Of a stretch of 32,524 bases of DNA, positions 10,392-16,018 are shown piece by piece. Under the pieces are notes generated by a model. The model ran no database searches. It saw only the letters and a program-made list of their open reading frames with translations, and was not told the origin of the DNA. Position 1 is the first letter of the stretch. Every line of letters begins with the position of its first letter. The translations under genes were made by a program, and so were the position numbers. This DNA is from Dictyobacter arantiisoli (GTDB lineage: Bacteria; Chloroflexota; Ktedonobacteria; Ktedonobacterales; Ktedonobacteraceae), in assembly GCF_008326305.1 (NCBI RefSeq), contig NZ_BIXY01000087.1, positions 1-32,524 of the forward strand. The letters are read 5' to 3'.

Positions 10392-11243
10392 TTAGTTGTC
10401 GAACGTTGGCGCGCGCCAATATAGGCGACTTGTGAGTGTGTCACCTGGTTCGTTCGCGGTGTTGGCTACCAATCCAGCATGGGACAAATGTTGCAATGAT
10501 TCCAAAATACGGTTTAAACGCTGATATTTTGTCGGAATCTGTCCTTGCATTTGAAGTAGACCTTGCAGTTGGGTCAAATTTATTCCTTGTTGCCGTGGCA
10601 GAATGGCAAGAATCAGGTTATCGATTTGTTGCTGTTGCTTACGATGAGCAATCTGCTCTGGGGTTTCTTGTCGTTGGTGTATATTCTCCGCAGGCAAGAA
10701 GGTCACATCGAAACGACAGGCACTAGCTCCTTGTCTCATACATGCTTTTTCATGAATGCGCACCTGTTGACCATAGCGTTCTGCCGCTCCTTCTATTGCG
10801 CCCCGTAGTAAAGGGCATAGTTGTCGGGAACTATCGTAGATGAGGGTCAATGAATTGCTATGCTTAGAGGACGCTTCATAACCAAAGATGGGAGGGGTTA
10901 ATCCTCCAGGGACACGTCGCATCTGAGCGTGGGCGTCACGCATTACAAGCAATAGATCGCGTCCACTATGTACTTGCGTCAATAAATATGAACAGCGGGA
11001 ACTGGTCAATCCATTGATGAGGAAATAACGGCCATATTCCCGTAAGAGAGTATCAACTGGGATGTGTGACAACTCGTGAACTACCACCACTCCTGCCAGG
11101 AGCATTGCATCATCGTAGACCTTGCTGGCCAGGGGGGCGTTTGCTGCTGTCTCGCCAATCTTTTCTCGATAAGTATTGAGAAAGGAAGTATTAAATCGAT
11201 TGACCAGGTATTTCTCCCAGGTCACAAAGATTAAACCATGCAT
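10392..11243 (-). CDS. H-NOX heme NO-sensor with C-terminal winged-helix-like domain
   Basis: Residues 1-183 are an H-NOX (HNOB) domain, starting MHGLIFVTWEKYLV. The proximal heme ligand is His105 (RDAHAQMRRVPGGLTPP). The heme-propionate motif Y-x-S-x-R is Tyr136-Ser138-Arg140. A V4R-like C-x(6)-C end (CMRQGASACRF) closes the domain. The position of the distal Tyr that lets some H-NOX proteins hold O2 is Leu145 here, which predicts an NO-selective sensor. Residues ~195-283 are not part of H-NOX. They read as helix (QIDNLILAIL), helix (LTQLQGLLQ), helix (YQRLNRILESLQHLSHAGLV) and a beta-wing ending YWRAP, a winged-helix fold by eye. The ATG lies 3 nt after the NO synthase stop, with AAGGAG overlapping the end of that gene, so the two are translationally coupled. 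It probably turns NO binding into transcription control. H-NOX identity is firm; DNA binding is inferred. Confidence 0.85.
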   Translation of the reverse strand: MHGLIFVTWEKYLVNRFNTSFLNTYREKIGETAANAPLASKVYDDAMLLAGVVVVHELSHIPVDTLLREYGRYFLINGLTSSRCSYLLTQVHSGRDLLLVMRDAHAQMRRVPGGLTPPIFGYEASSKHSNSLTLIYDSSRQLCPLLRGAIEGAAERYGQQVRIHEKACMRQGASACRFDVTFLPAENIHQRQETPEQIAHRKQQQQIDNLILAILPRQQGINLTQLQGLLQMQGQIPTKYQRLNRILESLQHLSHAGLVANTANEPGDTLTSRLYWRAPTFDN

Positions 11244-11246
11244 ATA

Positions 11247-12440
11247 TTACTCCTTCGTTGGATAGCTGGACAAAAATCTTTGTTCCAGCCAGGGATCGTC
11301 TTGATAAAAGAAGTTAGGGGTAACCTGGCGGTTTTCGTAAGGAATATGGAAAACCGGTGTCGTTGAGCCAGACATGGGTGGTACAATCCAGCTCCAGTCT
11401 GCATACAATTTGCGTCCTGCCTGCTGCTCACGTTTTTCATGGTGTATAAATTGTCGGGCTGCCGTGTGGTGATCGATAATGGTGACACCAGCTAGCGCAA
11501 ATGAGTGGAGTACTGCTCGGTTCAGCTCGACCAATGCGCGATCTTTCCAGAGCGTCCGATCTGAACGGGTATCCAGACCCATCATCTTTGCAATGAGTGG
11601 AAGCAGATTGTAGCGATTGATGTCTCCCAGGTTTCGCGCCCCAATCTCGGTTCCCATATACCAACCATTGAATGGAGCGGCTGTGTAGGAGATACCACCA
11701 ATCTCCAGTCGCATATTTGAGATTACTGGAAGTGCGTGCCATTTTATGCCTAATTCTATGAACCAGGAAAAATCTGGATGGCTGAGCGCGACCTCTAGTA
11801 CGCAATCACGGGGTAATTCAAACAGTTCAGGGGGACGATTGGGCATCTGGATGACAATCGGTAGAAGGTCGAAGGCCCCTCCTTGTGCTCCCCGCCAGCC
11901 CAATTTGTATAGCACTTCCGTCAGTTTTGTATGGAGTGGATCACCGATAATCGTACCATTTGCCTGCCTATAGCCCGCGTAGCGAATAATTTGAGGATTC
12001 CAGATACGGATACCTGGATGTCCTGGGCGTTGGGGCGCAAAGATGGTGATCATTGACCGTATCTTCCCGCTATTGGTAGCAAGGCGAATATGTTCGACAA
12101 TCGCCATGAAAATATCCTGGGCTGTAGAGAGATAGCGCATGTCGCGCACCTGGAGCATTTGCCAGTTGATTCGACCAATGCAACGTGCATTGTTACGCCA
12201 GGCGACCATCGAGCCATAGGTGAGCTCCTCTTGTGTCTGCCAGTATGTGCCTGTGCGCTCCAATTCAGTTTGTACTTCCTCTATTCTTTGCGGATAACTG
12301 TGAGGAACTCTACACTCTTGATGAAATATGCGCAAGTACTGTTGGGCCTCAATAAGAAGCTCTTGAGAAGCTTTTGATGGAAAAGGTCGGTAAGTTCTTT
12401 CCATATTTTCTTTCATTCCGAATCGACGTTGAAACTGCAT
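11247..12440 (-). CDS. nos: Bacterial nitric oxide synthase, oxygenase domain only
   Basis: This 397-aa enzyme converts L-arginine to citrulline and NO. The heme-thiolate Cys87 lies in WRNNARCIGR. The substrate pocket is FNGWYMGTEIGARNLGD, with Glu265 binding the arginine guanidinium. LWKDRALVELNRAVLHSF, IIDHHTAARQF and DWSWIVPPMSGSTTPVFH complete the dimer and pterin region. The distal residue in LPVISNM is Ile, as in other bacterial enzymes, which slows NO release compared with the Val of animal enzymes. There is no reductase domain and no flavodoxin gene nearby, so electrons must come from general cellular reductases. Three in-frame ATGs near the N-terminus (codons 1, 9 and 13) have weak ribosome sites; the first is annotated but Met9 or Met13 would also give a full domain. 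It is the first gene of a two-gene operon with H-NOX. Confidence 0.95.
   Translation of the reverse strand: MQFQRRFGMKENMERTYRPFPSKASQELLIEAQQYLRIFHQECRVPHSYPQRIEEVQTELERTGTYWQTQEELTYGSMVAWRNNARCIGRINWQMLQVRDMRYLSTAQDIFMAIVEHIRLATNSGKIRSMITIFAPQRPGHPGIRIWNPQIIRYAGYRQANGTIIGDPLHTKLTEVLYKLGWRGAQGGAFDLLPIVIQMPNRPPELFELPRDCVLEVALSHPDFSWFIELGIKWHALPVISNMRLEIGGISYTAAPFNGWYMGTEIGARNLGDINRYNLLPLIAKMMGLDTRSDRTLWKDRALVELNRAVLHSFALAGVTIIDHHTAARQFIHHEKREQQAGRKLYADWSWIVPPMSGSTTPVFHIPYENRQVTPNFFYQDDPWLEQRFLSSYPTKE
11250..11255 (-). promoter_or_regulatory. Ribosome binding site inside the NOS stop region (translational coupling)
   Basis: On the minus strand the NOS gene ends AAG GAG TAA, then TAT, then the H-NOX ATG. 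The AAGGAG is both the last two NOS codons and the H-NOX ribosome site, so ribosomes finishing NOS are placed to restart on H-NOX. Confidence 0.8.
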
Positions 12441-12807
12441 AGCGGTTAAATATACTTGAATGTAGTTTTTGCTTTATACTGCTGCTATATAACAAGTACA
12501 CTTTACCTTCGCAATTATGAATCTTCTATTTGTCGCTTTAGATGCTTGCATAAGTATACATATAAGTCGACTAACAAAAAAGTAACCAGTACTTTAGTAG
12601 TAATAAAAAATTGCTTATAAGGATAAGATTATCTATAATTTATAGATGATTATATAGCTGATCGTATTGTTCAGTTTCATGAAGAAGCAATGGGGCTCCA
12701 ACGACAACACAAAGAGTTGCCGAAGTTATTTCACATCTAGCTTATATTTTGCGCATGCTGTGTGTCTGTTCATTTGCATGTCCAGGCGATTCCACCCCGA
12801 ATACCCT
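12441..12807. other. AT-rich intergenic region upstream of the NO synthase
   Basis: About 370 bp, clearly richer in A/T than the flanking genes, lie between the NOS start and the end of the stalk-protein gene, both on the minus strand. It must hold the NOS promoter. It contains a dyad at 12631-12647 listed separately. I found no gene or terminator with a clear U-run. Confidence 0.5.
12631..12647. promoter_or_regulatory. Dyad ATCTATA-ATT-TATAGAT, candidate operator
   Basis: Perfect 7-bp arms around a 3-bp centre lie about 190 bp upstream of the NOS start. The surrounding DNA is very AT-rich, so chance symmetry is possible. It is the best candidate I see for a regulator site in the NOS upstream region. 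Confidence 0.3.
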
Positions 12808-13743
12808 CTAAGTTATGAATGGCTCGTCAGATATATCATACCAGTGGGTATTGGTATTGTTGGCTGGAAGATCCGGGGCTGTTGTGATGTTAGGGTGTGT
12901 CATGCCTGCATTATCTGGCAGAAAGATTTGTGGCGAGGGTATGAAACCACGCGAGAAGGTATCTGCGCCATTGTTTGCTGTCGTAAAAGCAGGGAAGGTA
13001 TTCTCGGCTATTGGCGCTTCATTCATGTCACCAGGTCCCTTTGGAGTATTGGTGGGATCGGGCTCTAAGGTGCGCGTCCAGGAAGAAGCACCACTTGCTG
13101 GCACCTTGACCTTGATTGGTGGCAAAAGCATACGACGGAGTAGGAATAGACCGATGACGAGACCAAAGAGCAGGCATAGGAAAATAATAGCAATAATCCC
13201 CAGCATACTTGAAAATTCATTTCCCCCCGACTGATCCGATGTTTGTTTTTTTGCATTGCTATTGGGCGTAACAGGGATACTCGTTGGACTGGGACTATGT
13301 GTGTGTGTTATTTGCGCCGAGATGACTGTCGCGATTGCCGTAGGCGTTGCATGGGCCGTTGCTGTTGGATATGATGCAGCGGTTGTAGACGGCTGTAGGC
13401 TCGGCGTGGAGCTGGGTGTAGGTATTGACGTCGGTGTTGGTGCAGGTATTGGTGTCGGTGTTGGTGCAGGTATTGGTGTCGGTGTTGGTGCAGGTATTGG
13501 TGTCGGTGTCAACCCGGGCATTGGCGTCGGTGTTGGGCAAGCGAAAAGCACACCGCATGTACTCTTTGCATAGGCATGCGTAACCAGGACCACAGCGTCA
13601 GATCCCGCGATTGCCATCAGCAAAAGGGTGGCTATAATAACGCGCAGAAAGATCAGGTGCATCCGTATTTTTCGACGATGCTGTTTGACCCGAGATTTTT
13701 CTGTTTTATCTGGTTGACCCAGACCTTGTATATTTTTCTTCAT
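12808..13743 (-). CDS. Membrane protein with extracellular Pro/Thr-rich repeat stalk
   Basis: This 311-aa protein of unknown function has a basic N-terminus and a hydrophobic signal segment (~29-57, ending VTHAYAKS). A Pro/Thr/Ala stalk (~70-160) with PTPIPA repeats comes next. A single membrane helix (SSMLGIIAIIFLCLLFGLVIGLFLLRR, ~178-204, shown here only as its boundaries SSM and LRR) leads into a ~107-residue Pro/Asn/Thr-rich tail. The stalk is encoded partly by three exact 24-bp tandem repeats. By the positive-inside rule the stalk is outside and the tail inside. Such stalks present or space surface domains, yet there is no folded domain here. It lies 142 bp from the next minus-strand gene, so it could be co-transcribed with the sigma/sensor pair. 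The start has a distant AAAGG site; alternative start Met28 would shorten the N-terminus. Confidence 0.7.
   Translation of the reverse strand: MKKNIQGLGQPDKTEKSRVKQHRRKIRMHLIFLRVIIATLLLMAIAGSDAVVLVTHAYAKSTCGVLFACPTPTPMPGLTPTPIPAPTPTPIPAPTPTPIPAPTPTSIPTPSSTPSLQPSTTAASYPTATAHATPTAIATVISAQITHTHSPSPTSIPVTPNSNAKKQTSDQSGGNEFSSMLGIIAIIFLCLLFGLVIGLFLLRRMLLPPIKVKVPASGASSWTRTLEPDPTNTPKGPGDMNEAPIAENTFPAFTTANNGADTFSRGFIPSPQIFLPDNAGMTHPNITTAPDLPANNTNTHWYDISDEPFIT
13433..13504. repeat. Three exact 24-bp tandem repeats in the stalk gene
   Basis: Three head-to-tail identical copies of a 24-bp unit (13433-13456, 13457-13480, 13481-13504) are flanked by diverged partial copies. On the minus strand each encodes the eight residues PTPIPAPT. 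Exact identity indicates recent slippage or expansion, and stalk length is probably variable between strains. Confidence 0.9.
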
Positions 13744-13885
13744 CTCAGAAATGCACCTTTCTTTCAGATCTATCGTTAGGCGGACGTCTATGCAGAGATA
13801 GCCCGTGCAAAAGTTACTCTGCAGGACTCCCTGCTACCCCTGGATAACTCACGGCTGATTGGGAAGATTCGATGTTCGTGAGTTT

Positions 13886-15376
13886 TTAACTTACTGAATA
13901 GAATGAAGCAAGCATGGTATTGAATTTTTGCGTATAAGAATTAAACATATCTGGAGGTGCACTCAACTCGATTTTGTAGGGAGTATTCTGGTTAGAGTAT
14001 GCAACCTCTACCTTACTTGATTGACCCTGCACTGAATCCAGAAGATTTACTATGCCTATCTTCCAGGGGATGCCATGATAGGTGGCTGAACTTGTACTAA
14101 GCTGGGTCCCTCGTTTCACATCAGGATCCATCAACAGTAACAGGTCGTTGGAAAGATCGTTGGGATACATTACATCGACGTTGATGAAAACAGCACTCGT
14201 CACTGACGGGCGGAATTGTACTGTTTGTTGATAGATGCCAGCAGTGGTCACCTGCGTGATGACCCAGTTGGATGGATATTGGATTGTGAAGTATTGACTG
14301 CTATACACTTTTATGTCGGATATACTTGTTGTTGGTGATGCCATGATGGTTGGCGATGGCGTTGCCTTATCTATTGGTGTAGCCGTTGGTCTGACCGCTG
14401 GCATGACAGTCGGCGTTGCCACTGAGGTTACTACCGGTGTGGTCTGCGTATGGAATGACGCAAGTATAGTATTGAAAACCGGCGTATAGGCATCAAATTT
14501 GTCTGCAGTTGTACCTAATTCAATTTTGTAAGGGATTCTCTGGTGAGAGTATGCAACCTCAAGTTTGCCTGCCCTGGTGTGGGCGGAACCTGTGAGCTCG
14601 ACGATGCCAACGGTCCAGGGTATATCATGATAGGTGACTGCACTTGTGCTGATCAGGGTTCCCAGTTTCACGTCAGGGTCCATATGCAACAATTGATCAG
14701 TAGAATATTTATTATCGAGCAGCACATCAATATTAATAAAAACAGTACTGGTCACTGATGGACGGAATTGCACTGTTTGCTGGTAGGAACCAGCAGTGGT
14801 CACCTGCGTGATGACCCAGTTGGATGGATATTGGATTGTAAAGTATTGATTGCTATACTTCTTCATGCTTGCTATATCCATCGTGGGTTGGCTTTGAGGT
14901 GTATTCCTGGGTGTGAGAGATTGGATGATACCAACCGACGTGCCATAAAGAGCATAAGATACTAGTGGCCCGAAGAAGATAACAAGCAATATAACGGCTG
15001 CAGCAAGGCTAAACCCAGGCATGCGCCAGTTCCAAATGAATGGCCGTTGTGACCGTTTACCAGCTCTGTGCAGTACTGGATGAGAAAATACTTCACCAGA
15101 AGTGGGTCTCACCTGTTTTTCTTCCTGAGCGGACTGGATAGTAGAAACCTCCACATTGGAGGAGATGTTGCCAGCATTGAGAGCAGATACCTGATTGTTG
15201 ATGCGCGCCCAGACTTGTTCTAGCCTGCGGTTCTCTGCATAGATACTTTGCAGATTATGAACAGTATGAAATATCGTTGTCGCAGTGGCAGAGATATCTG
15301 CCTGCGGCTGCGAAAGATAATGCTCTATTTGCTCATCAACGTTTTCTATTGTAAGTTTTTCGTCATCGCTATCCAT
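13886..15376 (-). CDS. Single-pass membrane protein coupled to an ECF sigma factor, with duplicated extracellular domain
   Basis: This is a 496-aa protein. Residues 1-118 are cytoplasmic, mostly helical and charged (ENRRLEQVWARINNQV). A membrane helix lies at ~121-144. Two copies of a ~140-residue domain start YSNQYFTIQYPSNWVITQVT and YSSQYFTIQYPSNWVITQVT, joined by a Thr/Pro linker. The YF-x-I-x-YP-x-x-W opening resembles PsbP-like lipoprotein/membrane domains. Its start overlaps the end of the sigma gene by 8 nt, with AAGGAG and a 7-nt spacer, so the two are made together. By position it may be the anti-sigma or a partner that senses the outside. However, I do not see a standard zinc anti-sigma motif (H-x3-C-x2-C), so that role is an inference. 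A longer frame upstream lies inside the sigma gene and was rejected as start. Confidence 0.75.
   Translation of the reverse strand: MDSDDEKLTIENVDEQIEHYLSQPQADISATATTIFHTVHNLQSIYAENRRLEQVWARINNQVSALNAGNISSNVEVSTIQSAQEEKQVRPTSGEVFSHPVLHRAGKRSQRPFIWNWRMPGFSLAAAVILLVIFFGPLVSYALYGTSVGIIQSLTPRNTPQSQPTMDIASMKKYSNQYFTIQYPSNWVITQVTTAGSYQQTVQFRPSVTSTVFINIDVLLDNKYSTDQLLHMDPDVKLGTLISTSAVTYHDIPWTVGIVELTGSAHTRAGKLEVAYSHQRIPYKIELGTTADKFDAYTPVFNTILASFHTQTTPVVTSVATPTVMPAVRPTATPIDKATPSPTIMASPTTSISDIKVYSSQYFTIQYPSNWVITQVTTAGIYQQTVQFRPSVTSAVFINVDVMYPNDLSNDLLLLMDPDVKRGTQLSTSSATYHGIPWKIGIVNLLDSVQGQSSKVEVAYSNQNTPYKIELSAPPDMFNSYTQKFNTMLASFYSVS
14238..14287. repeat. 50-bp exact direct repeat, copy 1
   Basis: This is identical over 50 bp to 14790-14839. 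It encodes the ITQVTTAG-containing opening of the second sensor domain (minus strand). Surrounding sequence is only partly similar, so this block has been conserved or converted more than the rest of the duplicated domain. Confidence 0.85.
14790..14839. repeat. 50-bp exact direct repeat, copy 2
   Basis: This is identical to 14238-14287. It encodes the opening of the first sensor domain. The copies are 552 bp apart, which gives a substrate for deletion or expansion of one domain. Confidence 0.85.
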
Positions 15377-15920
15377 TAATCCGCTCCTTGCCGTTTGTGC
15401 TATAGAGATCCCGCAAAAGATTGAGTGAACGTAAAAGCAAGGAACGGATGGCTCCATCGCTTTTATGTAGTCTTGATGCAATCTCTTTGGTACGCAGGCC
15501 ATCTTCGAAGCGAAGTTGCAACACTTGCTGTTGCAACTCTGGTAGTACGGACAGATGGGCACGCAACAATTCCACTTCTTCTCGCTCCACTATCGCTTTC
15601 TCCGGAGTAATCAGATCGGCATCGAATGGACTATCGAGCATCTCGTCCAGGGCTACCTCGGGATATCTGGTCACTCTTCGTTGATAATCAACCACTTTGT
15701 TGCGTGCTACTCGCTGTAGCCAGGCAAATTGTTCTTCCATACTCAATTTGGGCAAGGTCGGACTCTGAATAGCAGCTAGAAAAACCTCGACTAATAAGTC
15801 GTCAGTATCCTCGTTTGAAAATATATATCTATGGATATATCTCAAAATATCACGCGCATGTTTATCGTAGAGCTTTTCAACCGGTGAACGGTCAAAGACT
15901 TGCCGTTGTCGTTGATGCAT
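15369..15920 (-). CDS. ECF-type RNA polymerase sigma factor
   Basis: This 183-aa extracytoplasmic-function sigma factor has two recognisable regions. Region 2 is at ~13-75 (EKLYDKHARDILRYIHRYIF, NEDTDDLLVEVFLAAI, WLQRVARNKVVDYQRR) and recognises the -10 element. Region 4 is at ~122-175 (LSVLPELQQQVLQLRFEDGL, TKEIASRLHKSDGAIRSLL), with a helix-turn-helix for the -35. The region 1.1 and 3 domains of housekeeping factors are absent. The start is the ATG 4 nt after GAGGAG; an upstream in-frame TTG overlaps that site and was rejected. It overlaps the membrane protein gene by 8 nt. The regulon is unknown; a likely target is its own promoter. Confidence 0.9.
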   Translation of the reverse strand: MHQRQRQVFDRSPVEKLYDKHARDILRYIHRYIFSNEDTDDLLVEVFLAAIQSPTLPKLSMEEQFAWLQRVARNKVVDYQRRVTRYPEVALDEMLDSPFDADLITPEKAIVEREEVELLRAHLSVLPELQQQVLQLRFEDGLRTKEIASRLHKSDGAIRSLLLRSLNLLRDLYSTNGKERING

Positions 15921-16018
15921 GGTGCTCCTCAATGGTAAATTGAAAATATCATATGGCTATCGGGGCGTTCTACGGTAATGTTGCATAGCTAGCCGAAATA
16001 GTAACCAAATGGGCTATC

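Follow-up and report, generated by a model that had tools for sequence, protein, structure and literature searches.

In the window, the whole 32,524-nucleotide stretch of DNA that was analysed, a bacterial NO synthase (NOS) gene is directly followed on the same strand by an H-NOX gene, whose protein product carries a conserved C-terminal tail that is predicted to fold into a winged helix. The second gene appears to encode a one-component NO-selective heme regulator that combines an H-NOX sensor with a DNA-binding C-terminal winged helix (probability roughly 0.6), and the locus is best read as a family of one-component NO-responsive regulators recruited into an NO-synthase operon. A broader proposal is that H-NOX/winged-helix one-component regulators are spread over the class Ktedonobacteria and that the Dictyobacter member is co-translated with NOS, the two forming a self-contained circuit that places gene expression under the direct control of endogenous NO; the odds for this proposal are about even. 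Because an NO maker and a sensor with a predicted DNA-binding domain are encoded in one operon, the cell may both make the gas and read it at its genes. The features of the locus are collected in Table 1.

Table 1. Features of the NOS/H-NOX locus in window coordinates.
Feature	Position	Strand	Description	Basis
ECF-type sigma factor	15369..15932	(-)	block head	Pfam Sigma70_r2 + r4; 84-92% identical in three relatives
PsbP-like membrane protein	13886..15562	(-)	upstream neighbour	Pfam PsbP_2, E=5.1e-8; orthologues in three relatives
Pro-rich membrane protein	12808..13743	(-)	upstream neighbour, 311 aa	orthologues with 38-62% identity at the equivalent position in three relatives
Candidate promoter/operator	12441..12485	(-)	upstream of NOS; putative function	conserved stretch in four genomes
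NOS gene	11247-12440	(-)	bacterial NO synthase, oxygenase domain only, 397 aa	Pfam NO_synthase
H-NOX ribosome site AAGGAG	11250..11255	(-)	last two sense codons of NOS	sequence
H-NOX gene	10392-11243	(-)	283 aa	Pfam HNOB
H-NOX heme domain	10692..11243	(-)	residues 1-184 of the 283-aa protein	HNOB, Foldseek, key residues
Predicted winged-helix domain	10395..10661	(-)	residues 195-283, C-terminus	AlphaFold models, fold matches

NO synthase and H-NOX sensor genes

The NOS reading frame matches the Pfam NO_synthase family (PF02898) over residues 26-384 (E=2.7e-162), and solved bacterial and mammalian NOS proteins align with residues 18-388, nearly end to end. The heme-ligating Cys (RCIGR) and the substrate-binding Glu (WYMGTEIG) of the solved enzymes are conserved, and the full oxygenase domain together with these two residues places the protein in PF02898. 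Its identification as a bacterial NO synthase in an earlier note is thus borne out by the Pfam match and the alignment with solved enzymes. Judged from its sequence, the gene encodes a complete bacterial NO synthase oxygenase, which is predicted to make NO from L-arginine. A second, divergent NO synthase is encoded in the same genome (L070 5600-6775, contig 68:18677-19747) and adjoins methyltransferase, JmjC/cupin-like, SET-domain and carbon-nitrogen hydrolase genes. That locus resembles a biosynthetic cluster and may supply NO for nitration or nitrosation.

The H-NOX protein matches HNOB (PF07700) over residues 2-164 (E=1e-21), with a score of 78 bits versus the curated cut-off of 25.5, and a V4R match (Pfam) is located at the end of the H-NOX domain. 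Its closest solved relative is the H-NOX protein of S. oneidensis. The full-length AlphaFold model, built from an 18-sequence alignment with a mean pLDDT of 82, matches this structure (4u99) in Foldseek with an E-value of 1.7e-10 and a TM-score of 0.83 by target. The H105, P117, P118, Y136, S138 and R140 residues are invariant in 18 relatives, and H105 is aligned with the proximal His103 residue of S. oneidensis H-NOX. The protein therefore belongs to the H-NOX family by its domain match, fold, proximal His and YxSxR motif, as the earlier note had proposed. NCBIfam gave neither protein of the pair a name.

The distal pocket of the sensor lacks the Tyr residue that marks O2-binding H-NOX members (PMC8738867). 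L145 occupies the position of Tyr140 in T. tengcongensis H-NOX, which binds O2, and the residue at this position is hydrophobic in the relatives. Because the heme His, YxSxR motif and Pro residues are present and the O2-stabilising distal Tyr is absent, NO-selective sensing is predicted, and the protein would bind heme and NO. The C143, C168 and C176 residues correspond to C139, C164 and C172, the zinc ligands named for S. oneidensis H-NOX (PMC7108781), and are nearly invariant; the third cysteine, C176, is missing from the NOS-linked H-NOX of genome G046, which belongs to another genus.

The two genes are tightly coupled. The NOS stop codon TAA (11247-11249) is followed by TAT and then by the H-NOX ATG (11241-11243), leaving a gap of 3 nt, and the H-NOX ribosome site lies within the last synthase codons exactly as first noticed. 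The corresponding gaps in three relatives are 12, 14 and 35 nt, so the genes have stayed close together, whereas the ribosome site overlaps the coding sequence in this exact way in the window alone. Across the four genomes, a gap of 3-35 nt is kept at 74-84% protein identity.

The C-terminal tail and its proposed role

In the AlphaFold model, the tail consists of three α-helices (residues 195-214, 223-233 and 238-255) and two β-strands (residues 259-261 and 275-277), with pLDDT values mostly between 75 and 90. The same topology is obtained in two models, one of the full-length protein and one of the tail alone, calculated from 26 sequences. The order of three helices followed by a β-wing is that of a winged helix, as seen in these predicted models. 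Foldseek matches of the tail alone are mainly winged helices, including Fur/Zur/Nur DNA-binding domains as well as PadR (Rv3488, 5h20), YodB, MarR types, Z-alpha and histone H1/H5. Most of these matches have probabilities of 0.9-0.99, yet their E-values are weak (0.05-0.3, none ≤0.001), which is possible for so small a domain. The ~90-residue tail with three helices and a wing, read from the sequence in the earlier note, is thus recovered by the structure prediction and fold search that the note had called for on residues 190-283, albeit with these weak E-values. At the sequence level, no curated Pfam HTH family matches the tail above its cut-off; the best sub-threshold matches are the MCM4 winged helix, PadR and MarR, and a comparison with the sequences of solved structures gave chance-level matches only. 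The tail is likely to fold as a winged helix.

The tail is not strongly basic, with nine Lys and Arg residues and eight Asp and Glu residues. Its most conserved residues are the RYWR segment in the wing, and conservation singles out no recognition helix. The dN/dS ratio is 0.13-0.21 in the tail versus 0.10-0.17 in the sensor, for pairs in which dS was measurable in both. The tail is a real and conserved part of the protein that is under purifying selection like that of the sensor, and a DNA-binding function is plausible for it.

A winged helix can alternatively be pictured as a protein-protein module, through which H-NOX, like its proteobacterial counterparts, would act on a partner, for instance a histidine kinase, the upstream ECF sigma/anti-sigma pair or the synthase, instead of DNA. 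Known H-NOX proteins act on kinases and cyclases (PMC8738867, PMC8846402), some members of the present family adjoin sensor-kinase genes (divergently in two genera and, for a third member, nearby), an ECF sigma gene lies at the head of the block, and the tail is weakly charged. However, the wing of the tail is complete and includes a conserved basic strand, RYWR, and the best structural matches of the tail are DNA-binding domains. Moreover, the kinase or cyclase gene that would be expected beside a partner-type H-NOX is not found next to H-NOX in the window, and neighbouring partners vary by locus while the tail does not. The protein-module explanation is therefore considered rather unlikely.

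The DNA upstream of NOS contains a conserved stretch. In four genomes, the mean pairwise identity of the last 45 nt before NOS is 0.54 versus 0.29 further upstream. This stretch contains repeats of the AAGTAC type and shows no obvious ribosome site, and it is possible that it forms a leaderless promoter with an operator. AAGTAC-type palindromes were considered as a shared operator and rejected; the window and two relatives have them upstream of NOS, but at variable spacing, and they are absent from most other H-NOX promoters. A search for an operator motif common to the H-NOX promoters of the family found none, and promoter and terminator scans gave signals no higher than those of shuffled sequences.

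In the proposed one-component mechanism, NO from the upstream synthase or from outside would bind to the ferrous heme and break its bond to His105, and the distal subdomain would rotate against the proximal subdomain. Such NO-driven His release and subdomain rotation are known from structural work on H-NOX (PMC7108781). The helix of residues 195-214, which emerges from the V4R-like end of the sensor domain, may relay the rotation to the winged helices, whose changed pose or dimer state would alter promoter occupancy. Co-translation with the synthase would couple the amount of sensor to the production of NO, and the unit could thereby provide negative feedback on NO or serve as a switch for NO-dependent genes. 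The DNA binding, operator, regulon, target promoters and sign of regulation in this scheme are all putative.

Distribution and gene neighbourhood

Among 47 Ktedonobacteria genomes, H-NOX is found in 28 (40 genes) and NOS in 12. A profile of the tail matched 40 places, comprising 39 of the 40 H-NOX genes and one weak match elsewhere. The remaining H-NOX (genome G001, locus L033) is divergent and has a different C-terminal extension of its own. This gene (L033 1480-2571) comes from another family of the order and encodes a long linker, and its extension is also winged-helix-like. When 400 genomes of the phylum were sampled, H-NOX genes outside the class numbered only two, their open frames of 197 and 218 codons being too short for the tail described here, and NOS was found outside the class in only one genome. 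A patch search of 84,980 species, which detects close relatives only, returned only Ktedonobacteria. Given its presence in 39 of the 40 H-NOX proteins of the class and its near-absence elsewhere, the tailed sensor constitutes a ktedonobacterial family. It has a wider distribution than the NOS linkage, which it probably also predates. The idea that the tail originated together with NOS, as one component of an NOS circuit, is rejected, since tailed H-NOX proteins occur without a nearby NOS gene and in NOS-free genomes.

All 12 NOS genomes of the class contain H-NOX (p=0.0006 ignoring kinship; six of six by genus, p=0.02), and 16 of the 28 H-NOX genomes lack NOS. The latter genomes would suit a regulator that responds to redox state or to O2 or CO rather than NO, through the zinc-cysteine site (C143, C168 and C176) or another ligand, with an incidental NOS linkage. 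The near-invariance of the three cysteines that match the S. oneidensis zinc ligands is consistent with this explanation, as are the heme-free function of Vc H-NOX as a thiol redox sensor (PMC7108781) and the redox sensitivity of MsvR, a V4R-domain regulator of methanogens (PMC3729527). However, the heme His and YxSxR motif are present without change in every member that was compared, so these proteins have probably kept their heme; C176 has been lost from the G046 member linked to NOS, and NOS never occurs in the class without H-NOX. A regulator of redox, O2 or CO is accordingly improbable.

The host genome (7.2 Mb), that of a soil bacterium, shares its genus with Dictyobacter aurantiacus, D. 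kobayashii and strain brp13 (Ktedonobacteria, Chloroflexota). NOS and H-NOX are adjacent on the same strand in the window and in these three relatives, that is, in four of the five Dictyobacter genomes; the fifth has neither gene. The search for NOS with an adjacent tailed H-NOX, suggested in the earlier note, shows that the pair is kept in relatives, but among the 47 class genomes direct adjacency is conserved only within Dictyobacter, and the tail is general to ktedonobacterial H-NOX. Together with three upstream genes, the first of which encodes an ECF sigma factor, the pair makes up a block of five genes, whose order is kept in the four genomes while the downstream genes differ. The ECF sigma, PsbP-like and Pro-rich membrane proteins (12808-15932) possibly form a sigma/anti-sigma system, and the true start of the PsbP-like protein is probably internal, at MDSDDEK.

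A second linkage is found in another genus (G046, L009 2781-6516), where H-NOX, a 179-aa unknown protein, a PPOX-type FMN flavoprotein and NOS form an operon-like run on one strand; the flavoprotein might donate electrons to the synthase. In the tree, the H-NOX of G046 and those of the Dictyobacter group are not sisters, and two changes are needed; the G046 NOS groups with another genus. Both genes are unlinked in seven of the 12 NOS genomes. In two genera, a tailed H-NOX gene is divergent from a three-gene PAS/histidine kinase/hybrid kinase operon of the same order (L005 1767-7098 and L012 2216-6861), and an NtrC-type regulator and a kinase are located near a third family member. Neighbourhood inertia within one genus, by which two unrelated genes without a common job would simply have stayed adjacent, fits the restriction of adjacency to Dictyobacter and the mostly unlinked NOS genes of the class but is very improbable given the short gap kept at such protein divergence while downstream genes differ, the second linkage in another genus and the complete co-occurrence.

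Counted against the one-component regulator are the lack of an HTH family above cut-off, the weak Foldseek E-values, the not strongly basic tail, the most conserved residues (RYWR, in the wing), which single out no recognition helix, the failure to find a shared operator and the seven unlinked genomes. Counted for it are the key residues, the winged-helix models, the conservation and selection of the tail, the synteny, the second H-NOX/NOS operon and the co-occurrence in 12 of 12 genomes.

Comparison with known systems

The role of NO produced by bacteria's own NO synthases has for the most part not been settled; H-NOX sensors, for their part, are known to work via partner proteins. A synthase encoded with a sensor that has a putative DNA-binding domain would make endogenous bacterial NO signalling directly testable with one small protein and a promoter. 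The NOS protein has the same oxygenase-only layout and conserved key residues as the B. subtilis and Geobacillus-type enzymes, but its gene shares an operon with an H-NOX sensor, an arrangement that we did not find reported for those enzymes.

DNR, NorR and NsrR mediate NO-responsive transcription control using CRP/FNR, GAF and Rrf2 sensor folds, respectively. None of them is known to be encoded with an NO synthase. The Dictyobacter protein would perform the same job with a different sensor fold. DNR is also treated in PMC9500659.

In reviews, H-NOX proteins are either stand-alone and partnered with kinases or c-di-GMP enzymes or fused to chemotaxis domains (PMC8738867, PMC8846402, PMC9500659). 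Neither an H-NOX/winged-helix fusion nor an NOS/H-NOX operon was found in the open-access literature, which does not prove their absence elsewhere. The S. oneidensis SO2144/HnoX and V. cholerae H-NOX proteins share with the Dictyobacter protein the fold, proximal His, YxSxR motif, absence of the distal Tyr and three zinc-site cysteines (PMC7108781). However, these stand-alone proteins of ~180-190 aa act on partner kinases or cyclases, whereas the Dictyobacter protein has a predicted winged helix built in, and its gene has no such partner gene beside it. MsvR of methanogens is likewise a one-component protein in which a domain of the H-NOX/V4R superfamily is joined to a DNA-binding domain, the latter being predicted in Dictyobacter (PMC3729527; for the MetOD1-HNOB-V4R relation, see PMC5847659). 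MsvR differs in that its V4R domain lacks the H-NOX heme pocket and senses redox state and in that it is archaeal. HnoC of S. oneidensis (PMC8738867) would resemble the Dictyobacter system in that an H-NOX signal is carried to a transcription factor, but the signal reaches HnoC via a kinase relay, whereas in Dictyobacter the sensor and the putative DNA-binding domain reside in one protein. If this reading is correct, H-NOX joins the sensors of one-component regulators.
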